Source of the DNA: Chryseobacterium polytrichastri | Lineage (GTDB): Bacteria; Bacteroidota; Bacteroidia; Flavobacteriales; Weeksellaceae | Assembly (NCBI RefSeq): GCF_900142445.1 | Contig: NZ_FRAV01000002.1 | Location: 124,001 to 188,000 of the forward strand | DNA: 64,000 nucleotides | Reading direction: 5' to 3' | The notes under the pieces: model-generated | Database searches by the model: none | What the model was told of the DNA's origin: nothing | Seen by the model: the letters and a program-made list of their open reading frames with translations, nothing else | Shown here: positions 179-62,405 of the stretch, in pieces | How positions within the stretch are numbered: the first letter of the stretch is position 1 | Layout of the letters: each line of letters opens with the position of its first letter | Translations under genes and position numbers: made by a program

Positions 179-190
179 GAGCTTAATCCC

Positions 191-273
191 GCTTTCCACT
201 GTATCTTTTTTATTACGGCCTCCGCTTCGCTCCGGCCGCAACAAAAAAGGAGGCCGTTGCAATCGGGGCTAGT
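191..273. repeat. dispersed palindromic element, copy 1
   Basis: An 83-bp element lies between purM and purN and occurs again at 48358-48440 with the same length. Its core is a hairpin: CGGCC (216-220) pairs with GGCCG (234-238) around a TCCGCTTCGCTCC loop, flanked by a T-run on the left and AACAAAAAAGG on the right that can extend the stem. In the other copy both stem arms changed together. The element contains a TTG in frame with purN, which artificially lengthens that reading frame. Function is unknown; such elements are common between genes in this group, which I state from general knowledge. Confidence 0.85.
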
Positions 274-290
274 AAATAATATAGAAAGCT

Positions 291-4284: not shown

Positions 4285-5814
4285 ATGAATAACGGTATTA
4301 TCATATTAGATTTCGGATCTCAGTACAACCAGCTTATTGGAAGAAGAATCCGTGAGATGGGAGTATATTCTGAAATTTTACCTTTCAATACACCTTTAGA
4401 AACTATTTTAGAAAAACAACCAAGAGGAATTATCCTTTCAGGTGGTCCAAGTTCTGTGAATGCAGAAAATGCTCATTTAGTTGAAAAAGAATTATACGAG
4501 CAGGGAATTCCTGTATTGGGAATTTGCTACGGAATGCAGTTAACGGCACACCTTTTAGGGGGAAAAGTAAATAAAGGTGAAAAAGGAGAGTACGGAAAAG
4601 CTCATTTAGATATCATTAAAGAAAGCTCTTTATTAAAAGGGGTTACTCAAAACTCTGTAGTTTGGATGAGTCACTTTGATGAAGTTGGAGAATTGCCAAC
4701 AGGTTTTGAGTTAAATGCAAAATCTGGGGTTATTGCTTCTATTTCTAATGAAGACAAAAAAATCTATTGTGTACAGTTCCACCCTGAGGTTTCTCACACG
4801 GAAGAAGGAGGTAAGATGTTGGAGAATTTCGTTTTCTCAATCTGTGATGCAGAGAAAAACTGGAAACTAACCAATTATATCGAAAAAACAGTTGCAGAAA
4901 TTAAAGAAAGAGTAGGAGAGAATAAAGTGATCCTAGGTCTTTCAGGAGGAGTAGATTCTTCTGTAGCAGCCGTTCTAATTCACAAAGCAATCGGTGATCA
5001 GTTGCAGTGTATCTTTGTTGATACAGGTTTATTGAGAAAGAATGAAGACGTAAAAGTAATGGAAAATTACGGTGAGCATTTTAATATGAATATTAAATTG
5101 GTTGACGCTTCAGAAAGATTTCTTACAAAACTAGCCGGAGTAGACGATCCTGAACAAAAAAGAAAGATTATCGGAAACGAATTTATTCATGTTTTTGATG
5201 AAGAGTCTCATAAAATTGAAGGGGCTAAATTCTTGGCACAAGGAACAATTTATCCTGACGTTATCGAAAGTCAGTCAGTAAACGGACCATCAGCAGTAAT
5301 CAAGTCTCACCACAACGTTGGTGGACTTCCGGAAGAAATGGAATTTGAGCTGTTAGAGCCTTTAAGAGAGCTTTTCAAGGACGAAGTAAGAAAGGTTGGG
5401 GAAGAATTAGGGATTCCTCATCATTTGGTGCACAGACACCCTTTCCCTGGTCCAGGTTTAGGAATCAGAATTTTGGGAGCTGTAGATGCTGAAAAAGTGA
5501 AAATCCTTCAGGAAGCTGATGATATTTTCATTGAAGAATTATATAAAAATGATCTTTACGAGAAAGTTTCTCAGGCATTCGTAGTTTTACTTCCTGTAAA
5601 ATCTGTTGGCGTAATGGGTGATGAAAGAACATATGAATATACTGCGGTTGTTCGTTCTGCCAACACCATCGACTTTATGACAGCAACTTGGAGCAGACTT
5701 CCTTACGAGTTTTTAGATACTGTTTCAAGCAGAATTATTAACGAAGTAAGAGGAATCAACAGAGTAGCTTACGATATTTCAAGCAAACCACCTGCAACTA
5801 TTGAGTGGGAATAA
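4285..5814 (+). CDS. guaA: GMP synthase (glutamine-hydrolysing)
   Basis: The enzyme aminates XMP to GMP using glutamine and ATP. The N-terminal class I amidotransferase domain has the nucleophile C81 in GICYGMQL and H166/E168 in QFHPEVS. The ATP-pyrophosphatase domain has the PP-loop LSGGVDSS at residues 219-226. The C-terminal dimerisation domain ends with PPATIEWE, as in full-length enzymes. At 509 aa it is complete. It joins the purine cluster functionally, drawing on the IMP made by PurH. A strong terminator follows. Confidence 0.97.
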   Translation: MNNGIIILDFGSQYNQLIGRRIREMGVYSEILPFNTPLETILEKQPRGIILSGGPSSVNAENAHLVEKELYEQGIPVLGICYGMQLTAHLLGGKVNKGEKGEYGKAHLDIIKESSLLKGVTQNSVVWMSHFDEVGELPTGFELNAKSGVIASISNEDKKIYCVQFHPEVSHTEEGGKMLENFVFSICDAEKNWKLTNYIEKTVAEIKERVGENKVILGLSGGVDSSVAAVLIHKAIGDQLQCIFVDTGLLRKNEDVKVMENYGEHFNMNIKLVDASERFLTKLAGVDDPEQKRKIIGNEFIHVFDEESHKIEGAKFLAQGTIYPDVIESQSVNGPSAVIKSHHNVGGLPEEMEFELLEPLRELFKDEVRKVGEELGIPHHLVHRHPFPGPGLGIRILGAVDAEKVKILQEADDIFIEELYKNDLYEKVSQAFVVLLPVKSVGVMGDERTYEYTAVVRSANTIDFMTATWSRLPYEFLDTVSSRIINEVRGINRVAYDISSKPPATIEWE

Positions 5815-5836
5815 TCTTGATTTAATTTAAAATATA

Positions 5837-5866
5837 AATCCTGTTCTTATGAACAGGATTTTTTTT
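5837..5866 (+). terminator. intrinsic terminator after guaA
   Basis: AATCCTGTTC (5837-5846) and GAACAGGATT (5851-5860) form a perfect 10-bp stem with a TTAT loop, followed by a run of T. Confidence 0.93.
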
Positions 5867-6174
5867 GTTGTTGAACTTATTTGAACTGTTACTTTAATGA
5901 AAAATAAAACAGATACTGAAGGTTTTCATTTACGACCTAGGAAAATGTAACGTTAAGAAAATTTTTTTGGTGAACGTTAAAAAAATTCTACTGTTTGAGT
6001 GCGGGGCAAATATCGTAATGAAAGAAAACAATACATCCGCACGAGTTTTAGAATTTTTAGAGAATCAAAATCATTTTTAGTGAAAGTTTCCAGTCTTGAC
6101 TTTTTGTTTCTTTTTGTGTTAAGACAAAAGAAAAATTAAAGTATTAAAAATAACGATAATAAAAGGTTTAATGT
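5867..6174. repeat. gene-free spacer with interrupted palindromes
   Basis: No gene is seen. Two AACGTTAA copies (5949 and 5973) precede an interrupted palindrome: AAAAATTCTA (5981-5990) mirrors TAGAATTTTT (6049-6058), and inside it GTGCGG (5999-6004) mirrors CCGCAC (6037-6042). A second hairpin, TTTCTTTTTGT with ACAAAAGAAA, lies at 6107-6133 and could end transcription from either side. These look like degraded dispersed elements rather than a conserved gene. Confidence 0.5.
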
Positions 6175-48244: not shown

Positions 48245-48357
48245 TGGCTTAAAGGTGAATTTGTTGATGGCATTAGGTGTTAAGGTTTTATCATTATTAG
48301 AAACTTTATCAACAATTATTTATCAAGTTTCCAATCTTTTATTTGAAGCTATTTCCA

Positions 48358-48440
48358 GCTTTCCACTGTATCTTTTTTGTTACGGGCTCCGCTTCGCTTC
48401 GCCCGCAACAAAAAAGGATGTCGTTTCAATCGGGGCTAGT
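48358..48440. repeat. dispersed palindromic element, copy 2
   Basis: This 83-bp element matches 191-273 in length and in most bases. The stem here is CGGGC (48383-48387) with GCCCG (48401-48405), while copy 1 has CGGCC with GGCCG: both arms changed together, so pairing is kept. TTTTTTGTT on the left also pairs with AACAAAAAA on the right. The rest of the spacer (48245-48552) holds no gene. The element lies at the left border of the accessory region. Confidence 0.85.
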
Positions 48441-48552
48441 TTTAAGGTTTTTAAATTACTGATTAATAGTTGATTGGTAATTTTTACTCCCGAATTAGTT
48501 CCCGACTCTAAATATTTTAATCATTTTGAACCTATCTGAATCTAAGTGAATG

Positions 48553-49083
48553 CTAAGATCCGAAATAATGACCGTTAGACTCAAAATAATCATACATAAT
48601 GTTTCTTGCGGTAGCTTCCCAATCAATTACCACAAAGTTAGGTAAATTGAACGGTATATCATTTTCATATAATTCCTGTACGAAATCTTCATCGCTTGAA
48701 AACTCGCCGTAATAAAAATTGTTTACATATTCATAAATGCTTTGAAACTCCATTTTTCCCAAACAATCCAAACACGCTTCGTAAACCTCTAAGTCATATT
48801 CCGACTCATTTATTTGCTCCGCAATCTCATAAATTTCAGGAGATAAAAAACTCTCTCCAATCAATCCGAGTTTTTCAAACAGTTCGCAGTTTTCGTAATC
48901 TGGGAACATGAACTCTGCGTCAGGTTCATCTTTGTGGAGCTCTCGCATTACTTCCTGTAGCTCTTCATAGCTTGAATAGTCTGAAAGATTCAGCCATTTG
49001 CCATAAAGGCTTAAATTATTGTACTTGTGATAAGTCCCACAATAAACGGAACAATTGTCGAGACAATTTTGTAAATTTGCCAT
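48553..49083 (-). CDS. ardA: ArdA-family antirestriction protein
   Basis: The 176-aa protein has the ArdA features: VYCGTYHKYNNLSLYGKWLNLSD at 13-35, EFMFPDYE in the first half and strong acidity throughout (many Asp and Glu), which mimics the charge of B-DNA. ArdA proteins block type I restriction enzymes so that incoming mobile DNA survives. It is typical cargo of conjugative plasmids and integrative elements, so it marks this region as accessory. It has no close partner gene; two strong hairpins lie just upstream. Confidence 0.9.
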   Translation of the reverse strand: MANLQNCLDNCSVYCGTYHKYNNLSLYGKWLNLSDYSSYEELQEVMRELHKDEPDAEFMFPDYENCELFEKLGLIGESFLSPEIYEIAEQINESEYDLEVYEACLDCLGKMEFQSIYEYVNNFYYGEFSSDEDFVQELYENDIPFNLPNFVVIDWEATARNIMYDYFESNGHYFGS

Positions 49084-50767: not shown

Positions 50768-51184
50768 TTTATTTTATTTAAAAATTACTAATGTTTACAA
50801 CTTATTTCATAAAGTATTAATAGACATTTTTATAAATATACGAAATTTAAACTATTTTTATTGAAAATAATAAAATCTCATTTATAATTCATGAAAAAAA
50901 ATATGAAATATTAGTTTTAGAATAGATAGAAGTAAATTATTAGAGAAATAAATATTTAGTAGTGTATTGATACTATGTTGCAGAAACTTCGCTAACACAT
51001 ATATTCATAGTGGTTTACAAAGATCAGTAGAGTATTTGGGGTTAATAGAGAGATAATATATTGGCAAAATCACATCTTTTCAAATCAATGATTTTTTATT
51101 CCCGTCCAAAATCATAGAGATCTACTACTACATAAAACCCGAAGATATTGATTTTACATGCTCGAAGTCAGAGATTAAAAGTTT
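50768..51184. other. gene-free stretch upstream of the glycosyltransferase gene
   Basis: No gene is seen. The sequence is AT-rich with many stops in all frames. Segment 51034-51068 resembles 49592-49625 on the other side of the glycosyltransferase gene. The glycosyltransferase promoter should be within the first 100 bases but no TAnnTTTG box was found. Confidence 0.4.
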
Positions 51185-51886: not shown

Positions 51887-51894
51887 TATTTTTG
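51887..51894 (+). promoter_or_regulatory. -7 box upstream of the structured RNA element
   Basis: TATTTTTG fits TAnnTTTG and lies about 39 nt before the first paired base of the long hairpin. A transcript from here would carry the whole structured leader and then the gene at 52150. Confidence 0.5.
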
Positions 51895-51932
51895 TAGTCA
51901 ATACATTTTCGATAACGAAAAAGCGTTAATAA

Positions 51933-52148
51933 TTATTCTGCTGGCAGGAATCTGGTAAATTCAAAAGTAGTGCAGGGTGATAAGTTGAACGCTCACGTCC
52001 ATATTTTACGGGACGTGGGTTTCGCTTATTTACACTACAAGGCTTACCAGAGCCTCTGCCAGTAAATAAGAGTTACGAGCCTGCGTCCTTTTTCTATTAT
52101 ACAACCAAAACAAAACCGCACTTTAGGCTCGAGTGATACAAAGTCACT
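51933..52148 (+). ncRNA. long nested hairpin with an alternative fold; candidate structured leader or small RNA
   Basis: Bases 51933-52069 fold into one long rod. In order outside to inside: TTATT/AATAA (51933-37 with 52065-69), CTGGCAG/CTGCCAG (51941-47 with 52056-62), CTGGTAA/TTACCAG (51952-58 with 52044-50), GTAGTG/CACTAC (51967-72 with 52033-38), GATAAG/CTTATT (51979-84 with 52025-30), GAA/TTC, and CTCACGTCC/GGACGTGGG (51992-52000 with 52011-19) around a 10-nt loop. A competing hairpin pairs CTTATTTAC (52025-33) with GTAAATAAG (52062-70) and encloses GGCT/AGCC. Further downstream CGAGCC (52076-81) pairs with GGCTCG (52126-31) and AGTGA with TCACT right at the ATG. The next gene starts at 52150. 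No named RNA family was recognised. Confidence 0.65.
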
Positions 52149-52149
52149 T

Positions 52150-52524
52150 ATGAAAAAGGTCTTTATTTCTACTATGTTGCTCGTGGCAGTGAGCGCATTT
52201 TCTCAAGAAAAATTTGATTGCAACAATCTTTCTAAAACAGATTACCTGAATAAGTATCAGGAACTCAAAAGCTATGGGCTTGATAAAATCACGCTCAAAG
52301 ACGGTACGGAAGTCTTACCGCTAGTCATATCAAAAGTTTATGACGAAAACAGCCTGAGACAGGTTTGTATCAATTCAGCTTATGCAGACCATAGATACGG
52401 CACAGAAGCACATTACGAAATGTATCGTAAAAACATCTACAGCATATCTCGGGAAACATTCATGAAAAATTCAGATTACTTTGAGATATTCCTAGAAATG
52501 ATTGCACAACTTAAAAACCAATAA
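52150..52524 (+). CDS. small exported hypothetical protein
   Basis: A 124-aa protein with a signal peptide (MKKVFISTMLLVAVSAFSQ, cleaved before EKF). The mature part has Cys residues in KFDCNNL and RQVCINS, which could form a disulfide in the periplasm, and a Tyr- and Met-rich C-terminal half. No family recognised. It is the first gene after the structured leader, and the next gene starts 5 nt after its stop, so they are likely an operon. Confidence 0.78.
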   Translation: MKKVFISTMLLVAVSAFSQEKFDCNNLSKTDYLNKYQELKSYGLDKITLKDGTEVLPLVISKVYDENSLRQVCINSAYADHRYGTEAHYEMYRKNIYSISRETFMKNSDYFEIFLEMIAQLKNQ

Positions 52525-53449: not shown

Positions 53450-53454
53450 TTATT

Positions 53455-53804
53455 ATGAAAAAGATTTTATTAACAATGGTTTTTGTGTGTGTGTTTCTAC
53501 CTATGGTTATTCTCAATATAGAGACCCTCAGCAATTAGATATTTCAGGCTTGGGAAATGCAATGACAACAAAGCAAAACAGATATAACAATAATGTCGCA
53601 AAAGTTCAAAATACTGTAAATAAGATTGCAGACTATTTAAGAAACTTGCAAATATCCGACGAAAGAAAACAAAATTTGTTCAATTCTTTTGATGAAAAAT
53701 GTATGAAACAAATGCCAAGTATCAATTATAGTTCCGATGAACAAGCAGATTCTTTAGTAAAGTTTTTGTATGACTGTATCAATTATCAACTTAAAAATAA
53801 TTAA
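53455..53804 (+). pseudogene. small exported protein gene interrupted by a GT-run frameshift
   Basis: From ATG 53455 the frame encodes a signal peptide start (MKKILLTMVFVCV) and then stops soon after the run (GT)5 at 53485-53494. The +2 frame downstream encodes STYGYSQYRDPQQL and a normal continuation to 53804. Removing one GT unit joins both parts into a 115-aa protein with a signal peptide cleaved after GYSQ. So the gene is off with five GT units and on with four. It may be a true pseudogene, a phase-variable gene, or a sequencing error. The mature part has no recognised family. Confidence 0.7.
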
Positions 53805-53951: not shown

Positions 53952-54302
53952 TACTGCAAACACTTATTAACACAAGGGTTAACAAAGAATCTGCTACATA
54001 GTACCTATATATACTAAAATTTATATCAAATATTATCCTACTCTAATCACTTTCAAACCTATCTAATCATTCCAAAAGGGAAAATTAAGGATAGCCACGC
54101 GAATTTAAAAAAAAAAAAATCAATTATAACACGACATGATTTGTCGCTTGGTAGAAATATCTTTGCAATAGATAAAATACTAATACGTGATAAAGTTCAT
54201 GTTAAATCTCATTAATGGGATTTCAGAAACTATTAATAAATGTTAAATTTGCGGAATCATAATAATAAAAACTAACATTAACTTTTAAACACATAAAAAT
54301 AG
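53952..54302 (+). promoter_or_regulatory. spacer with the promoter of the toxin operon
   Basis: No gene is seen. TAAATTTG at 54244-54251 fits the -7 consensus, 51 nt before the first operon gene, with TTTC at 54221-54224 as a weak -33 box. A second -7-like TATCTTTG lies at 54158-54165. A run of 13 A around 54107-54119 is the longest homopolymer in the spacer. Confidence 0.45.
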
Positions 54303-55844
54303 ATGAGAAAACTCTACTTGAGTGCATTTACTATGTGCACAATCCTGACTTTATCAGCGCAGGAAGTGATTTGGCAAAAGGATATTAAATCCAATACACA
54401 GGATTTTCTAAGTCAGGTGATTACAACAATCGATGGACAGTATTTAATTACTGGAAGCTCCATTCAATCTAAGAAACTTTCTACGGATAACAAACAAAAC
54501 AACGGCTATGATCTGCATTTGGTTAAACTTAATCAACAAGGCGAAGAAGTTTGGGAAAAGTTCTTTGTCGGAAGTAATCATGATTTCCTTTCAGCAACTG
54601 TATCAACCCAAGATGGTGGATTTTTAGTAGCATCAACCTCTTATTCATGCAAAAGTCTGGACAAAAAAGACGATTCCAAGGGAGGTTCAGATTTCTGGTT
54701 GATCCGTTTAAATGAATTTGGAGACGAGCTTTGGCAAAAAACTTTAGGTAGCAGTTCAGATGAAGAAGCAAGATCGGTAATTCAAACGACAGATCTGGGA
54801 TTCTTTGTTGCTGGAAATGTACAAAACTCAGCTAAAGGTTATGGATCTAAAGATGTTTTGATTATCAAACTAGATAAAAACGGAAAAGAGCTATCACAAT
54901 CTATTTTAGGTGGAAAAGGATTAGATGAAGTTGAGAAAATGATTCCGACTAAAGACGGAGGTGCTTTGCTTGGGATATACTCCAGAAGTGGTATGGGTGG
55001 TTCAAAGAAAACTGAAAACTTTGGCGAAGGAGATTATTGGATTATAAAACTTAATAAAGAAGGCAAAGTTGAATGGGAAAAGAACTTCGGAGGAAAAGGT
55101 GATGATCATTTGAGAACATTAGTATTGACATCAGAAGGATTCTTAATCGGTGGTGAGTCAAGATCAGAACGATCAGGAAATAAAACAGTTGGAATTGAAG
55201 AGGGTACGGATCTGTGGTTGATTTCATTCAATGACAGAGGAGATGAAATCTGGCAGAAATCTTACAATTTCAAAAACAGAGATGTTTTGATGGGAATGAG
55301 TGTTTTACATAGTTCAGATGATAAAACATCAAAAGGTATTTTGTTAGGTGGATATACGCAGGCTGAAGGTAGAATACAAACTGATGATGAAACATTTTGG
55401 ATGCTGTATTTGGATCAAAATGGGAATGAACAGTGGAGAAAACATGTCAAAGGAGAATCCAGCAAGAAAGAAGAAAGATTATCTGATATCAAACTTAACA
55501 GAGATGGTTCAATCATTTTAGCAGGCACCAGTGCCGAAGAACTTGGAAAAGAAAACTGGAAGATCATTAAGCTTGGAGACAAACAAATTGATCAGTTGAT
55601 TGTAAAACAAGATATCAAGATTTATCCGAACCCTGTTTCAGATTATGCGTATGTGGAAATAGGTTTTGATTTCAAAGAAGCTGATATTTCTTTGTATGAT
55701 ATGAGTGGAAGACAACTTCAAAGTTTGAAAACCAGAAACAATGTAACCAAAATCAATACTCAGAATTTGATTCAGGGAGCTTATTTGATTACGATTAAAA
55801 CGGATACGAATAAAACAGCTAACGCTAAATTGATTAAAAAATAA
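54303..55844 (+). CDS. secreted propeller-like protein with T9SS tail
   Basis: The 513-aa protein has a signal peptide (cleaved near LTLSAQ-E). Residues 20-430 contain repeated units with a hydrophobic-Lys-Leu-Asn...G-E..W.K pattern (LVKLNQQGEEVWEK, LIRLNEFGDELWQKTLG, IIKLNKEGKVEWEKNFGG), about 60-70 aa apart, as in beta-propellers. A T9SS type A tail starts at IYPNP (about 439) and ends AKLIKK. It is the first of four tightly packed genes leading to a polymorphic toxin, with 9 nt to the next. A role in delivery or display of the RHS proteins is inference. Confidence 0.85.
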   Translation: MRKLYLSAFTMCTILTLSAQEVIWQKDIKSNTQDFLSQVITTIDGQYLITGSSIQSKKLSTDNKQNNGYDLHLVKLNQQGEEVWEKFFVGSNHDFLSATVSTQDGGFLVASTSYSCKSLDKKDDSKGGSDFWLIRLNEFGDELWQKTLGSSSDEEARSVIQTTDLGFFVAGNVQNSAKGYGSKDVLIIKLDKNGKELSQSILGGKGLDEVEKMIPTKDGGALLGIYSRSGMGGSKKTENFGEGDYWIIKLNKEGKVEWEKNFGGKGDDHLRTLVLTSEGFLIGGESRSERSGNKTVGIEEGTDLWLISFNDRGDEIWQKSYNFKNRDVLMGMSVLHSSDDKTSKGILLGGYTQAEGRIQTDDETFWMLYLDQNGNEQWRKHVKGESSKKEERLSDIKLNRDGSIILAGTSAEELGKENWKIIKLGDKQIDQLIVKQDIKIYPNPVSDYAYVEIGFDFKEADISLYDMSGRQLQSLKTRNNVTKINTQNLIQGAYLITIKTDTNKTANAKLIKK

Positions 55845-55853
55845 ACACAACTT

Positions 55854-58800
55854 ATGAAGAAGCAACTTAATAAAAATCGTAAAATAACATTATCAATATT
55901 GTGTTTATTTGGAGTATCATTTTATTCAGGTCAAAATATACCTATAATAAAATCTCCACAAACTTATAATATCGAAAAATTTGGAAATATTCCTGTTAGT
56001 ATGAATACAGGAAGCATCTCCTATGATGTCAATCTTTTTAATTATGGAGATATTTACAATGGAAATGGATATAATATTGGATTGAGATATTATGGAACAG
56101 GATTTATTCCCGCAAAAAAATCTAACTATGTAGGGTTAGATTGGTCATTAGATATAGGAGGAGCAATTACTAGAGAAGTAAGAGGGTTACCTGATGATTT
56201 CTTTTCAGATTGGCCAAAAAAACAAGGTTTATATGGATATTTAGAAGGTGTTAAAACATCCAATAAAACAAGTAATGATATATATAACCAAAATTACAAT
56301 CAATTTCCTGATGGAGGTGGTGGGATAGGTATTAAAACAGGAGCATTTGGTTTTGAAATTGAACCTGATAAGTTTAGTTTTAACTTTATGGGAAATAGTG
56401 GATACTTCTTCATTGGAAATGATATGAAACCAATTATTATTTCCGATAATAAAAACCTGAAAATTGATGTTTCAGGACTTTCATCTAAACAGCCCCTTGA
56501 TCCGATACAAATAAATGGTTCTCAATGTTTGACTAAACCTACAACCATTACAATTACGGATGAAAAAGGTATAAAATATTATTTTGGAGGAAATTATGAA
56601 AATTTGGAGATTTCATATAATTTATTACCAAATGCCGAGTCAGAAAATCCTTTTACTATCACCTCATGGAATTTATTCAAAATTGAATATCCTAATTCCA
56701 ATATATTAGAAATTAAGTATCGTACAGTCACACCTAGTATAACTGACAGAAACTTTTGCAGATCTAATCCAGGAAATATTAGGAACTTGCAAGAGCCTTT
56801 CTTACTAATGTTTGACCATAATACTATCTTTAAACAAGAAATTAAAGCTACAAATGGAAATTATAATACAAGCAGTGGAAGTTTATTATATGATGGAACT
56901 ATTTATTGGGGTGGTAGCACTACATCTAGTGATGGTAGCAATACATCATACTCTGCTACTAAAAAAAGCTTTCCAGATTCAATTTTATTAAATGGGAAAA
57001 CAATAGTCTTCTTTGATTTCGAAAGATTTGATCAATATTTAGGATATACAATTCCTTCTTTAAAGTTAAAAAACATTATCTTTTACAGTACATCTGGAAA
57101 TCAAATAGTTAAACAAATAAATTTAGACTATTACAGATACAAAGATTACTTCTTTTTAGATAAGGTTAAGATGTATAAAAAAGATCGAATCTCATCAGAT
57201 TATTTACAAGAATATAGTTTTGATTATTATAATAAAAATACATTACCAGATGAGAATACAGCATTAATTGATTATTGGGGTTATTTTAATAATAAGCCCA
57301 GGATGAATATGATTCCAAATTTCACACTAAATAAAAATACTGGAGACTATGTAATTACAGATAATACACAAGAAGCAGATCCTACATTATCTTCAATAGG
57401 ACTAATGAAAACAATAACCTACCCTACCAAAGGAAAAAGTGAATTCATTTATGAGCCTCATAAATATAGTGAAAAAATAGACAGGAATTCCTCATCACAA
57501 TTTAAAAATATATTAATTCAATCAGAAGGAATTGTAAGTGGAGGACGAATTAATAAAATCATTAATTATTCTAATGACGGAACTCAAATAGGTACTAAAG
57601 ACTATAAATATGTTAGCAATTATTCTCCAAATGGAGCAAGCATTAAATCAAGTGGAATTCTATCTAACTTTTATCGTAATTTAACGTATGTAAGAGTACA
57701 AACTCCTTTTAGTACTTATGAGGAACTGAATGCTTATTCAGATAATTTTATTGAAACTTCTATGAATTCGTTTCCTGTACTATATTCTGAAGTTACAGAA
57801 ATTGAAAACAATAAAGGATATACAAAATATTATTTTACAGATTACAAAATGTATCCTGACAGCCAAGATAATAAAGCAGTTGATAATAATACAAGTAATT
57901 TGGATGTAAATTATTATCCTGCTAATATAACGAATATCAACCTTCCTTACCGTTCAAATAACTATAAAAGAGGAAAATTATATAAACAGGAAATATATGA
58001 TCAGAACTTTAATAAATTAAAATCCTCCAATACCGAATTTATAGATGTTTCGGAAGTTATCTCAAATAATTTTGCTACTTATGTTACAGATAGATTAAGA
58101 ACTAAATATTTCTTTAAATTATTTGGAGGATCATTCTCACCTAGCAAAACCATTTCTGATGATATTTTAAACAATAATTTGTTATCCTCTAAATCAGAAT
58201 ATTTTTATCAGTCTGCCAATGGCATGAATATTTCAAAGATTAAAAGTACAAATACAGATGGGAAAATTACAGAAACCAATTATCAATATGCCCATGAAAA
58301 GGGAAATCAAAAATTGATCAATACGAATATTGTAGATACTCCTTTAGAAATATCTGTACTAGAAAAGCAGAATATAAGTGATGCTGGAAAATTAGTTTCT
58401 AAATCCGAAGTTAAGTATGATAATCCCGCAAATGTATATCCTACTATGGCATTATCCTATGATTTGCAAAACGGGACTCCATCCACCGAAGCTACTTATG
58501 ATCTTTATGATGGGAAAGGTAATTTACAACAATACACCACAAAAGATGGTGTTTCTACAACAATAATCTGGGGTTATAACAATACTCAGCCCATTGCAAA
58601 AATAGAGGGTGCAAAACTATCTGATATTCAGCAATCTTTTATTGACAGTATTGTTAATGCTTCCGATACTGATGCTTTAGCAATTTCAAATAGTGATGAA
58701 GCTTCATTTTTATCTGTTCTCAATACATTTAGAAATAATCTTCTAAATTATCAAATCTCAACGTACACTTATGATCCATCGATCGGTATAAGAAGTATCA

Positions 58801-58922
58801 CTCCACCAACAGGAATCAGAGAGGTTTATATCTATGATAGAGCCAACAGAATAAAAGAGATCAGGCAAGATAATGCAACAGGAAAAATTCTGAAAGAACT
58901 CAAGTACAACTATAAAAACTAA
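55854..58922 (+). CDS. large exported YD-repeat / SpvB-like protein
   Basis: The 1022-aa protein has a signal peptide-like start (ILCLFGVSFYSGQ). The N-terminal part (YNIEKFGNIPVSMNTGSISY, LDWSLDIGGAITREV, about 40-110) resembles the shells of Tc-toxin B and SpvB-type proteins. The C-terminal third has YD-type repeat text (YDLYDGKGNLQQYTTKDGVS, REVYIYDRANRIKEIRQDN). Tc-B- and RHS-type proteins wrap a toxin in a hollow beta-shell. Here the shell seems split between this protein and the next, 6 nt downstream. The exact assembly is inference. Confidence 0.8.
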   Translation: MKKQLNKNRKITLSILCLFGVSFYSGQNIPIIKSPQTYNIEKFGNIPVSMNTGSISYDVNLFNYGDIYNGNGYNIGLRYYGTGFIPAKKSNYVGLDWSLDIGGAITREVRGLPDDFFSDWPKKQGLYGYLEGVKTSNKTSNDIYNQNYNQFPDGGGGIGIKTGAFGFEIEPDKFSFNFMGNSGYFFIGNDMKPIIISDNKNLKIDVSGLSSKQPLDPIQINGSQCLTKPTTITITDEKGIKYYFGGNYENLEISYNLLPNAESENPFTITSWNLFKIEYPNSNILEIKYRTVTPSITDRNFCRSNPGNIRNLQEPFLLMFDHNTIFKQEIKATNGNYNTSSGSLLYDGTIYWGGSTTSSDGSNTSYSATKKSFPDSILLNGKTIVFFDFERFDQYLGYTIPSLKLKNIIFYSTSGNQIVKQINLDYYRYKDYFFLDKVKMYKKDRISSDYLQEYSFDYYNKNTLPDENTALIDYWGYFNNKPRMNMIPNFTLNKNTGDYVITDNTQEADPTLSSIGLMKTITYPTKGKSEFIYEPHKYSEKIDRNSSSQFKNILIQSEGIVSGGRINKIINYSNDGTQIGTKDYKYVSNYSPNGASIKSSGILSNFYRNLTYVRVQTPFSTYEELNAYSDNFIETSMNSFPVLYSEVTEIENNKGYTKYYFTDYKMYPDSQDNKAVDNNTSNLDVNYYPANITNINLPYRSNNYKRGKLYKQEIYDQNFNKLKSSNTEFIDVSEVISNNFATYVTDRLRTKYFFKLFGGSFSPSKTISDDILNNNLLSSKSEYFYQSANGMNISKIKSTNTDGKITETNYQYAHEKGNQKLINTNIVDTPLEISVLEKQNISDAGKLVSKSEVKYDNPANVYPTMALSYDLQNGTPSTEATYDLYDGKGNLQQYTTKDGVSTTIIWGYNNTQPIAKIEGAKLSDIQQSFIDSIVNASDTDALAISNSDEASFLSVLNTFRNNLLNYQISTYTYDPSIGIRSITPPTGIREVYIYDRANRIKEIRQDNATGKILKELKYNYKN

Positions 58923-58928
58923 TACACA

Positions 58929-61900
58929 ATGAAAAAGATACTTATTCTAATTTGGGGGTTACTCTTGGGAAGCACGCTTCATGCACAAAATTTACCTACT
59001 ACAGAAAATTATATTGAAACCAGAACTTATCTTGACTCTGTAACCATAAGCAGTTCAACTGCAAAACAAATCCATACAGTTCAGTATTTTGATGGTTTAG
59101 GACGACCAAAACAGGTTGTTAATGTAAAAGCTTCACCACTGGGAAGAGATGTTGTCAGTCACATTGAATATGACGGATTTGGAAGACAAACTAAAGATTT
59201 TTTACCTATTCCACAGTCACAAACGCTAAATGGAGCAATTGCTCCGACTCCTTTAGCCAATGCAACTTCCGTTTATGGTTTAGAAAAAATCTATGCAGAG
59301 AAAATCTTAGAAAACTCACCATTAGACAGAATTCAGCAACAGATTCAGGTAGGAACTGATTGGGCTTCTAAGCCTGTGAAATTTGAGTATGATACCAATA
59401 ACAATGGAGATTATGTAAGAAAATATGAAACTACCACAACATGGGATCCAGTTGGTAAAATGATGTTGACTTCTGTTCAGCTATTGCAATATTTTCCAAT
59501 TGCTCAGCTATATAAAAATACAATCATTGATGAAGATGGGAACCGAACCATTGAATTTAAAAATGGTAAGGGACAAACTTTATTGGTGAGAAAAGTAATA
59601 AACCCTACTGAAAACGCTGATACGTATTATGTTTATAATGAGTATGATGTCTTGGCTTATGTGATCCCACCATTGGCTTCAGCGCCCACCGTTGAGCCTG
59701 CTACTGTGGAAAACCTTTATTATCAATATCGCTATGATGGCAGAAAGAGACTGGTAGAAAAAAAAGTTCCTGGTAAGGGTTGGGAATATATGCTTTATGA
59801 TAAACAGGATCGTTTAGTAGCCACACAGGACACTGCTTTGAAACAAAAAGGACAGTGGATATATACAAAATATGATCAGTTCGGAAGGGTTGCTATTACG
59901 GGAATCGGTACTGGCTCAGAAAGAATCACTGAGCAAAATATGGTTGATGGTTTAGGATCAAATAATGTCAACAGACTCAGTACTCCTCTTTTTGAAAGAC
60001 AGGGAATGGATGTATATTATGGAAATCAAGATTCAACTTATCCGAATTCAACAAAATGGATAACATTGTTATCATTGAATTATTACGATACCTATCCAAA
60101 TTACAGCTTCAATCCTTCATTTCCAACAAGTATTTTCGGACCCACTTTAACAGATAATCCTACAGCAACTGGTAAAAGTACGAAAGGACTTTCTGTTATG
60201 AGTCTGGTTAAAAACATCGAAGATGATAATTGGACAAAGAATTACTCATATTATGATACCCGAGGAAGAGTTGTCGGAACGTATTCTATCAATCATTTGG
60301 GAGGATTTACAGAGACAAAATCTGAACTTGATTTTGCAGGAGCTCCGAAACAAAATATCACCAGACATAAAAGAGTGAATACGGATACTGAAAAAGTAAT
60401 CATAGAAACCTTTGAATATGATCATCAAAATAGGTTACTTGTCCACAAACATAAAATAGACAACAATACGGAAGAGATCTTAGCTCAGAATAAATACAAT
60501 GAGCTTTCTCAGCTGGAATCTAAAAAAGTCGGAGGAATCAATATTTCAACTCCTCTTCAAACTATTGATTATAAATACAACATACATGGTTGGATGACCA
60601 AGATCAATGATCCTGTTAATCTTAACGGAAAATTGTTCGGTTATGAACTTAAATACCATAATCCAGTCAATACTACTTTTGCTATGGCAAAGTATAACGG
60701 AAATATTGCAGAAGTTGATTGGAAGACTTCAAATGATGATGTACTAAAAAGATATTCTTATAATTATGATAAATTAAACAGACTTAACTTCGGACATTAT
60801 TCTGAGCCTAATAGTACCGTGCCACTGGAAGATCATTTCGGGGAATCTATAGAATATGATTTGAACGGGAATATCACCCGATTATATCGAAATGCTAAAA
60901 ATATAACCAACGGAATGGCAATGCAAATCGATAATCTAACGTATAGCTATGCAGGTAATAGGCTGTTAAATGTAACAGATGCTTCCCAGAATTATTTAGG
61001 ATATGTTGGAGGAGGAAATACTATTGGCTATGACTTGAACGGAAATATGACGAGTCATGTGGATAAGGGAATTACAAGCATTCAATATAATTTCCTGAAC
61101 CTTCCTTCTACCCTTATCAAGAACAATAATAAGAGTCCTTTCGGTGGTGCTATATCTCATCTTTATGGAGCTGATGGAAGAAAGCTTAAAAAAGCATATT
61201 CATATTATAAAAGAGATTGGCAGGGAAATACAAATCTTGCCTTAACTACTACGGAATATTTAGATAGTTTTCAATATGTACTTGAAAGCAATGGATTTGG
61301 ATGTATTGATTGTCCCCCTCCTTCCCCTAATTTACAGTTTGTACCTACTTCGGAAGGTTATTTTGATTTTGTAAAAAATAAGTATATTTACAATTATACA
61401 GATCATTTGGGGAATATCCGTCTGAGCTATTTTAATAATGGAAACAGTATAGAAGTTCTTGAAGAGAATAATTATTATCCGTTTGGGTTGAAGCATGAGG
61501 GAGTAAATGTATTGACAGGAAACACTGCCTATCAATACAAATATAATGGCAAGGAGTATCAACAAGAGATCGGAATGACTGACTTTGGAGCTAGAATGTA
61601 TATGAATGATCTAGGGAGATGGGGTGTAATTGATCCTTTAAGTGAATTACAATTTGCTTATAGTCCATATTCTTATGTTTACGGAAATCCTATTAGATTC
61701 AATGATCCAACAGGTATGATTGGAGAAGATCCTGATCCTAAAAAAATATACGGTCCTAAAGGAGGACATCCAATAGAAGAAGTTGTAATAACAGGTGTTT
61801 CTAAGGCAAAACAAATGGATCGTTCCCTTTCATTTATGGGAATCCAAAGTTTAAATTCTTTCCATGCTTCGGAAGATAGATTTGCAGCAGGAATTAGAGG

Positions 61901-62405
61901 AAGTAAAGCGGCTCTTGCCACTGAAAAATTTGAAAAAAACTTTGCTTTTGCAATAGGAACTTTCGGAATGGGAGGAACTAATTTATTTGCTTCAGCTGCT
62001 TGGGCTACTTTTGACACTTATATGAGTTATCAAGATGAAGAAACTCAGGATGCAGTTGGAACAATACAGTTAATGGCAATTATAGCACAAGTATCACATG
62101 GGAATGCCTCAGGAGTAAATAAGTTGATCAATATTGGCAAGCAAGGGAAACATATAATTGGACATAACAATTATATAATAGGTAAGAGTATTTTAAAAGA
62201 GGATGCTCAATTATTATTAGATGCCTTTCATTCAGGGAATATTAAATCATCGAGAGTGATTAATGAAGCAAAAGTAAGTGTAGATTTTGGTAAAGTTATT
62301 GGAGATTTTGTCCAAGATGGAGTTCCTACTCCAACAAGTGTAGGAACAGTGATTAACAGTAAAACAGGAGTACATATTGTTCCTGCTAACCCTATACAAT
62401 ATTAG
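58929..62405 (+). CDS. RHS-repeat polymorphic toxin with C-terminal Ntox50-like domain
   Basis: The 1158-aa protein has a signal peptide (to LLLGSTLHAQ), a DUF6443-type N-terminal domain (about 20-190, TVQYFDGLGRPKQVV), YD repeats, and the RHS core (about 820-925: YTDHLGNIRLSY, YPFGLKHEG, YNGKEYQQEIGMTDFGARMY, YSPYSYVYGNPIRFNDPTG). After this the sequence changes: residues 1070-1158 have GKHIIGHNNYIIGKSIL, VDFGKVIG and NSKTGVHIVPANP, matching the polymorphic toxin type 50 domain, a predicted nuclease. The toxin should kill rivals by contact or release. The next gene starts 5 nt after its stop and is the expected immunity gene. Confidence 0.85.
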   Translation: MKKILILIWGLLLGSTLHAQNLPTTENYIETRTYLDSVTISSSTAKQIHTVQYFDGLGRPKQVVNVKASPLGRDVVSHIEYDGFGRQTKDFLPIPQSQTLNGAIAPTPLANATSVYGLEKIYAEKILENSPLDRIQQQIQVGTDWASKPVKFEYDTNNNGDYVRKYETTTTWDPVGKMMLTSVQLLQYFPIAQLYKNTIIDEDGNRTIEFKNGKGQTLLVRKVINPTENADTYYVYNEYDVLAYVIPPLASAPTVEPATVENLYYQYRYDGRKRLVEKKVPGKGWEYMLYDKQDRLVATQDTALKQKGQWIYTKYDQFGRVAITGIGTGSERITEQNMVDGLGSNNVNRLSTPLFERQGMDVYYGNQDSTYPNSTKWITLLSLNYYDTYPNYSFNPSFPTSIFGPTLTDNPTATGKSTKGLSVMSLVKNIEDDNWTKNYSYYDTRGRVVGTYSINHLGGFTETKSELDFAGAPKQNITRHKRVNTDTEKVIIETFEYDHQNRLLVHKHKIDNNTEEILAQNKYNELSQLESKKVGGINISTPLQTIDYKYNIHGWMTKINDPVNLNGKLFGYELKYHNPVNTTFAMAKYNGNIAEVDWKTSNDDVLKRYSYNYDKLNRLNFGHYSEPNSTVPLEDHFGESIEYDLNGNITRLYRNAKNITNGMAMQIDNLTYSYAGNRLLNVTDASQNYLGYVGGGNTIGYDLNGNMTSHVDKGITSIQYNFLNLPSTLIKNNNKSPFGGAISHLYGADGRKLKKAYSYYKRDWQGNTNLALTTTEYLDSFQYVLESNGFGCIDCPPPSPNLQFVPTSEGYFDFVKNKYIYNYTDHLGNIRLSYFNNGNSIEVLEENNYYPFGLKHEGVNVLTGNTAYQYKYNGKEYQQEIGMTDFGARMYMNDLGRWGVIDPLSELQFAYSPYSYVYGNPIRFNDPTGMIGEDPDPKKIYGPKGGHPIEEVVITGVSKAKQMDRSLSFMGIQSLNSFHASEDRFAAGIRGSKAALATEKFEKNFAFAIGTFGMGGTNLFASAAWATFDTYMSYQDEETQDAVGTIQLMAIIAQVSHGNASGVNKLINIGKQGKHIIGHNNYIIGKSILKEDAQLLLDAFHSGNIKSSRVINEAKVSVDFGKVIGDFVQDGVPTPTSVGTVINSKTGVHIVPANPIQY

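Follow-up and report, generated by a model that had tools for sequence, protein, structure and literature searches.

Our data point, with near certainty, to a conserved structured leader RNA ahead of small genes in Chryseobacterium polytrichastri, a member of what appears to be an undescribed, Bacteroidota-wide RNA family. Comparison of the sequences of its copies establishes the RNA's structure, two competing folds, a set placement from -7 box to start codon and, in many cases, packaging in IS1595-family transposons. On the best-supported reading, the RNA is a bistable 5' leader that acts in cis and moves together with mobile cargo genes, and we put the probability that the leader is both cis-acting and bistable at about 0.8.

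The folded element and its relatives

The window, by which we mean the whole 64,000-nt stretch of DNA analysed, contains a long nested hairpin that a first-pass annotation had described as a 137-nt rod ahead of four small genes. Folded as RNA, positions 51933-52148 reach -72.37 kcal/mol (z -5.77; 200 dinucleotide shuffles had a mean of -48.1 and a standard deviation of 4.2, and 0/200 folded as low), and the complementary strand folds less extremely (-67.3 kcal/mol, z -4.12). The hairpin therefore exists and exceeds what chance would produce. Its stems lie where they had been placed, as do the strands CTTATTTAC and GTAAATAAG, proposed to form a competing helix, and the -7 box TATTTTTG, 39 nt upstream, which we take to be an instance of the Bacteroidota -7 consensus TAnnTTTG. 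The rod is present, and the true element is bigger, extending from about 51920 up to the ATG at 52150 (Table 1).

Table 1. Features of the leader RNA, its cargo and its surroundings, in window coordinates
Feature	Position	Strand	Evidence or remark
Empty site TTATTTTA targeted by the RNA-carrying IS1595 transposon of genome G046	50769..50776	.	Flank splits onto L199 3238-3664 and 7433-7531
Left inverted repeat of block	50945..51009	+	Aligns with 54027-53965 (75% over 65 bp, E 1.3e-4)
-7 box TATTTTTG, Bacteroidota-type promoter	51887..51894	+	Position shared by homologs
Whole leader RNA, AAAGCGTT to start codon	51920..52149	+	Conserved over the 25-copy alignment A1; matched by model R2
P1a (GCGTTAATAATTATTCTGC), 5' strand of hairpin 1 in fold B	51923..51941	+	Pairs with 51972-51992 in constrained fold B; inner part 89.8% paired in homologs
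P2a, 5' strand of outer rod stem	51942..51948	+	Helix 1, 97.6% of cells paired
H1 loop strand TCTGGTAA, complement of H2	51951..51958	+	Helix 2, 96.9%
P3a, 5' strand of inner rod stem	51967..51972	+	Helix 3, 96.4%
P1b, 3' strand of hairpin 1, includes P4a	51972..51992	+	Constrained fold B; paired in homologs
S1 (GCTCACGTCC), partner of S2 in the rod	51991..52000	+	98.1% paired in homologs
S2 (GGGACGTGGGT), switching strand, partner S1 or S3	52010..52020	+	Both helices conserved in homologs
P4b CTTATTTAC, partner P4a (rod) or P4c (fold B)	52025..52033	+	Paired in homologs
P3b	52033..52038	+	Rod helix in homologs
H2 segment GGCTTACCAGAGCC; local hairpin GGY..RCC, loop complementary to H1	52041..52054	+	Rod helix; local closing pairs counted
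P2b	52055..52061	+	Rod helix in homologs
P4c GTAAATAAG, alternative partner of P4b	52062..52070	+	Paired in homologs
S3 (GCCTGCGTCC), partner S2 (terminator-like) or S4	52079..52088	+	Both helices in homologs
U-rich tract 3' of S3	52089..52094	+	T fraction in copies scored
S4 (TTTAGGCTC)	52122..52130	+	Helix 6, 94.1%
Hairpin AGTGA..TCACT adjoining start codon	52132..52148	+	Comparable stem in 37/55 leaders
First cargo ORF (124 aa); N-terminus looks signal-like by eye	52150..52524	+	No Pfam match
Second cargo ORF, 193 aa	52530..53111	+	Also second in relatives L009-L012
Third cargo ORF, 103 aa	53138..53449	+	C-terminal motif similar, by eye, to first cargo ORFs elsewhere in the family
Fourth cargo gene	53454..53804	+	Start and body in different frames
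Right inverted repeat of block	53965..54027	-	Related repeats lie on either side of RNA copies in L190, L191 and L211

Homologs were found by blastn in the same genus (148 genomes searched), and 25 copies of ~230 nt were aligned after palindromic matches had been turned to the proper strand (alignment A1). At E 0.01, covariance model R1 matched 133 of 146 same-genus genomes and, across the family, 231 of 296 genomes and 25 of 33 genera. A wider model, R2, matched 76 of 296 genomes in the order and 41 of 296 in the phylum at E 1e-5, and it matches the window copy at 51933-52134 with 148.4 bits. These genome counts are lower bounds because only a few candidates were scored per genome, and the E-values of the searches are rough. 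The window's own genome has three copies. An exact-pattern scan found at least 118 stretches with the RNA, and hosts among the matches listed include Chryseobacterium, Elizabethkingia, Flavobacterium, Mucilaginibacter, Belliella, Bacteroides and Parabacteroides. Exact-pattern copies also occur on four IMG/VR contigs (L404-L407), one of which, L404, has an IS1595-like ORF downstream (by eye). Copies are tandem or paired in L093, L097 and L213, and those in L093 and L097 precede a methyltransferase-like gene (an MmeI_Mtase match in L093). In L185, the rteR small RNA (RF04181, 70-152) falls on the same stretch as an RNA copy, which suggests a CTnDOT-like element.

Rfam 15 gave no match to the window element at gathering, nor up to E 5, and in 17 loci with relatives, scanned up to E 1, the RNA likewise drew no match at gathering. 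The open-access papers searched describe neither this RNA nor any IS1595-borne RNA. Two published sets resemble it by description. The transposase-resistance motif, whose name suggests transposase and resistance genes, is listed as possibly cis-regulatory, with members in several phyla, and as an ambiguous RNA with no Rfam accession (Weinberg et al. 2010, PMC2864571). A second paper reports 64 structured 5' regions and conserved small RNAs in Flavobacterium psychrophilum, some without an Rfam match (PMC9723704).

Competing folds, promoter and start codon

We counted covariation in alignment A4, which holds the 73 copies matching at E 1e-8 or better; it omits 27 weaker matches, taken from their coordinates as the opposite strand of the palindrome, and L095, a near-duplicate of L094. 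In the rod, 96.4% of cells are paired and 37 of 41 pairs show two-sided changes (692 cells), a result that 0/500 shuffles come near, in an alignment that was made to the covariance model and is biased towards its structure. Alignment A1, which was not fitted to a structure, shows compensatory changes in 22 of the 41 predicted pairs. The paired substitutions that the first-pass annotation had named as the check on its hairpin are present.

Helices outside the model were counted across A4 in columns set from one copy, L013. By this count, S2:S3 is paired in 90.0% of cells in homologs versus at most 67.1% for slid versions, P1a:P1b in 89.8% (slid, at most 64.5%) and P4b:P4c in 83.5% (slid, at most 53.2%); S1:S2, which belongs to the model, is paired in 98.1%. 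P4b:P4c, the competing helix claimed earlier, has 98 two-sided cells, a number that no shuffle reaches. The number of S2:S3 pairs with two-sided changes is reached by 141 of 500 shuffles, so there is no excess. Because S2 can pair with S1 or S3 but not both, and P4b with P4a or P4c but not both, the rod and the S2:S3 fold (fold B) are mutually exclusive, as had been proposed, and both covary in homologs.

The two folds differ in energy. With minimum free energies computed up to the U-tract after S3, without pseudoknots or kissing loops, the rod lies below fold B by a median of 10.6 kcal/mol in the 67 of 73 copies scored (the others lack the S3 columns or have fewer than five pairs), and fold B is lower in one of the 67, by 0.1. 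Since the rod is energetically favoured in almost all copies, fold B, if used, would have to be kinetic or somehow stabilised. H1 and H2 are also able to form local hairpins with complementary loops, and these loops could form a kissing pair.

Two stems of the rod vary in an unusual way. Excluding terminal pairs, P2 has 360 Watson-Crick and 0 G-U pairs and P3 has 416 and 2, with 169 and 213 cells, respectively, departing from the commonest pair; in 48 further or partly overlapping copies, the counts are 233 and 4 for P2 and 247 and 4 for P3. G-U pairs fill 121 of 495 inner cells in S1:S2. Genome G109 carries eight RNA copies with eight distinct P2 arms. Selection for stability, self-recognition and pairing at the DNA level may each explain strictly Watson-Crick yet variable arms, and all three fit.

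The -7 box stands at a constant distance from the RNA: across 400 nt upstream of the 73 copies, there are 59 matches 41-50 nt before the model start versus 48 in the other 39 bins together, for a pattern picked after the sequences had been inspected. Downstream of S3, the first 10 nt have a T fraction of 0.69 in the copies scored, compared with 0.33 element-wide, and this U-tract is broken up in many copies that directly lead an ORF. The mutually exclusive terminator and antiterminator helices of a transcription attenuator are both there (S1:S2 and S2:S3 conserved, with a U-rich tract), and the energies favour the antiterminator.

Of 117 distinct copies, 80 have an ORF of at least 50 aa that begins between -35 and +45 nt of the model end; a few of these ORFs may not be genes, being short or overlapping that end. 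The other 37 copies have no ORF directly behind them, and standalone copies lie 126-393 nt from the next ORF. The stem that closes on the ATG at 52150 in the window (AGTGA/TCACT) recurs in homologs: between S4 and the ATG, stems of at least 6 bp are present in 37 of 55 leaders, versus 20% of mononucleotide shuffles, and these stems reach 10 bp and vary in sequence among copies. A leader peptide was considered and rejected; some copies have, by eye, a short ATG-initiated ORF across S1, but this ATG is missing from the window copy.

Transposons and cargo genes

The 324-aa transposase found beside some copies contains a DDE_Tnp_IS1595 domain (PF12762, E 8.3e-38). The IS1595 family carries passenger genes. 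A survey of 146 genomes of the genus, largely the same as those of the R1 search, gave 64 transposase matches in 49 genomes. A strong RNA copy (at least 77 bits) lies within 2.2 kb of 39 of these 64 transposases (21 of 30 fetched loci, 16 by coordinates and two more from a further search); with so few copies in each genome, we estimate that chance alone would account for well under 1%. Ten further transposases have weak RNA matches (22.9-34.6 bits), which look like a divergent subfamily with the same layout (by eye), and the remaining 15 have no RNA at E 0.1, three of them in short elements of ~1.6-1.7 kb (L235, L236, L237). In 22 genomes chosen for carrying the RNA, 18 of 19 full-length transposases lie ~1.5 kb or less from a copy (L206 and L207 counted), a less fair count than that of the genus survey. 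In the divergent subfamily (L252-L258, L261, L262 and also L259), a copy of the H1 segment, for example CTACCACA, directly precedes the ATG (by eye), and most cargo proteins share a signal-like N-terminus (MKFEFSTFK..) followed by differing mature parts.

At nine loci, inverted repeats enclose both transposase and RNA (self-comparison E 7e-6 to 0.13, some weak alone). The clearest insertion is in genome G046, where a 3.77-kb element (L199 3665-7432) holds the transposase, a 322-aa gene, the RNA (5696-5878) and two small genes between the ends GGCAACTATATA../..TATATAGTTACC, with an 8-bp target duplication, TTATTTTA; it is the sole insertion checked for duplication. A second copy, 99.9% identical, lies elsewhere in G046 (L198), and the window has the empty site, with flanks that match L199 at 79% identity (974 bp) and 87% identity (101 bp). 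The duplicated target, the second copy and the empty site indicate that the RNA moves with the transposon. The host elements of many copies thus share with known passenger-carrying IS1595 insertion sequences the DDE_Tnp_IS1595 transposase, terminal inverted repeats, an 8-bp duplication and variable passengers, and differ from them in having a conserved structured RNA ahead of the passengers. The first-pass annotation had offered a folded mobile-element end as one explanation of the hairpin. Its link to mobile DNA is right, but the RNA is internal wherever ends are visible, that is, in the nine loci delimited by inverted repeats and in both G046 copies.

The window copy and its small genes sit in a 3.08-kb block between inverted repeats that are unlike those of IS1595. 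The window has no IS1595 match at a usable E-value, and the block shares neither transposase nor inverted repeats with that family. A phage or plasmid origin was considered and rejected. A blastn search of phage and plasmid collections with a close copy, L013, gave no match, and the window copy itself gave merely short, chance-like matches to plasmids.

The four small genes reported downstream of the window hairpin include one, the fourth, that is not intact, since its MKKIL start and its homologous body are split between frames around a TG repeat near 53485; it may be a pseudogene or possibly phase-variable. Other copies lead different genes. The 80 directly led ORFs fall into 41 groups (BLASTP E 1e-3), and the idea that the RNA always precedes homologs of the gene at 52150 does not hold. 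At most 11 of 50 cargo representatives have a Pfam match at E 1e-3, and many cargo proteins have exported- or lipoprotein-like N-termini (by eye). One RNA class lies upstream of TonB plug receptors, with a small divergent gene that is often XRE-like (by eye), and RibD_C-like genes are recurrent neighbours of some copies. Cargo for defence or anti-defence was considered and rejected, with just two weak PADLOC matches in 50 proteins scanned. Toxin families are absent among the Pfam and NCBIfam matches of 50 downstream proteins.

Proposed mechanism, alternatives and neighbouring features

The suggestion that the hairpin is a novel cis-regulator with exclusive folds is supported at the sequence level by the constant -7 box, the start-codon placement, the two covarying folds and the lack of an Rfam match in the scanned loci. 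For an origin of transfer, another of the earlier proposals, the analysis turned up nothing in favour. How such a leader would work is less certain. We give transcription attenuation about an even chance of being the main mechanism, and infer both the switching and its direction. Hairpin 1 (P1a:P1b) would be the first to form during transcription. Later strands would then zip up the rod (P2, H1:H2, P3, P4a:P4b, S1:S2), probably beginning with H1/H2 loop pairing, which would keep S2 from S3 and allow read-through into the cargo gene. Alternatively, S2, P4b and P4c would stay free, and the terminator-like S2:S3 helix with its U-rich tract would yield a short RNA only. The choice between the two could be biased by a ligand, a protein, the speed of elongation or a second RNA. 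In the read-through RNA, S3 would pair with S4 and a hairpin would adjoin the AUG, likely a second, translational layer. Trp-type attenuators and riboswitch leaders likewise have strands with two partners, a terminator-like helix with a U-rich tract and a 5' leader position; unlike them, this RNA has no leader peptide (by eye), is packaged in transposons and leads 41 cargo families instead of one pathway.

If the cis-acting, bistable leader is real, a pathway-independent RNA switch would govern a large, orphan and mostly exported gene pool on mobile DNA throughout the phylum, in hosts that include gut, soil and fish-associated genera. The orphan cargo would gain a shared regulatory handle. Such a leader would also show how passenger-carrying transposons curb the cost of their cargo. 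With its hundreds of covarying variants, this natural four-strand RNA switch would lend itself to studies of folding and to engineering in Bacteroidota, for which few regulators are known. We entertain, as a speculation that is probably wrong, a portable, self-contained Bacteroidota expression switch for unrelated mobile cargo in which the copy-specific P2 and P3 arms serve as an address for self-folding or recognition of kin, so that a copy does not fold onto the others present in the cell.

Attenuation could also be driven by a ligand, in which case the H1/H2 junction and the S1-S3 core would form the aptamer of a riboswitch class for one metabolite or ion, with the cargo as its regulon. This reading is compatible with attenuation and differs by naming the trigger. 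The core motifs shared across the phylum (GGY..ACCAG..RCC and GCTCACG/CGTGGGC/CCACGC), a layout of aptamer plus switch and the recurrent TonB plug receptor and RibD_C-like neighbours are what such a class would lead one to expect, but the cargo has no metabolic theme and no Rfam riboswitch scores above gathering in the loci scanned, and we consider it unlikely. A riboswitch for a single metabolic pathway, once a candidate for the leading reading, was dropped because the 80 ORFs are spread over so many families, few of them with Pfam matches.

The stems at the start codon allow a different emphasis, in which the leader is mainly a translational switch: as the RNA refolds, the AUG hairpin exposes or hides the start codon, and termination is incidental. 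The frequency, length and variable sequence of these stems agree with this, as does the far greater stability of the rod than of the terminator fold. So does the divergent subfamily, where H2 could pair either with H1 or with the copy of H1 before the ATG (by eye). Against it, S3 and its U-rich tract are terminator-like even in standalone copies with no ATG nearby, and we rate the translational switch as quite improbable.

A standalone or trans-acting small RNA that merely lies upstream of genes (6S-like, an RNA antitoxin or an antisense RNA) appears very unlikely. Some copies are far from any ORF and a few are tandem or paired, as such an RNA might be, but most directly precede one. The 6S-like rod proposed earlier is not supported, given this placement and the absence of any 6S match, with 6S-flavo (RF01685) finding neither the window element nor the 17 scanned loci, and the downstream matches include no toxin family. 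The short tandem RNA repeats before a ToxN-like RNase that mark type III toxin-antitoxin systems are likewise missing, the RNA mostly being a single ~190-nt copy.

Very unlikely too is a DNA-level element, an attC-like site for recombination or transposition that folds as a single strand. In its favour are the strictly Watson-Crick P2 and P3 arms, which folding of both DNA strands would require, the variation of the arms even within one genome and the mobile surroundings; integron attC sites share with this element a long imperfect palindrome beside mobile cassettes and variable Watson-Crick arms. The many G-U pairs in S1:S2, the constant distance from its own promoter, the ATG placement, the internal position in delimited transposons, the lack of cassette arrays among the loci seen and the absence of an attC-like core-site pair (RYYYAAC and GTTRRRY, looked for on both strands up to 30 nt from the model ends; 0/73 copies) all oppose it.

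The window has several other features. The Flavo-1 RNA (RF01705) matches it twice, at 48348-48441 (-) and 181-274 (-). An ArdA-like antirestriction gene lies close to the block (48553-49083, -), and by eye L012 and L406 have a similar ORF not far from the RNA. On the other side, the block is adjoined at 54303-62405 by genes that, by eye, encode a T9SS-sorted protein and two large YD/Rhs-like products, and standalone RNA copies in L096, L106 and L278 precede homologs of this T9SS-sorted protein.
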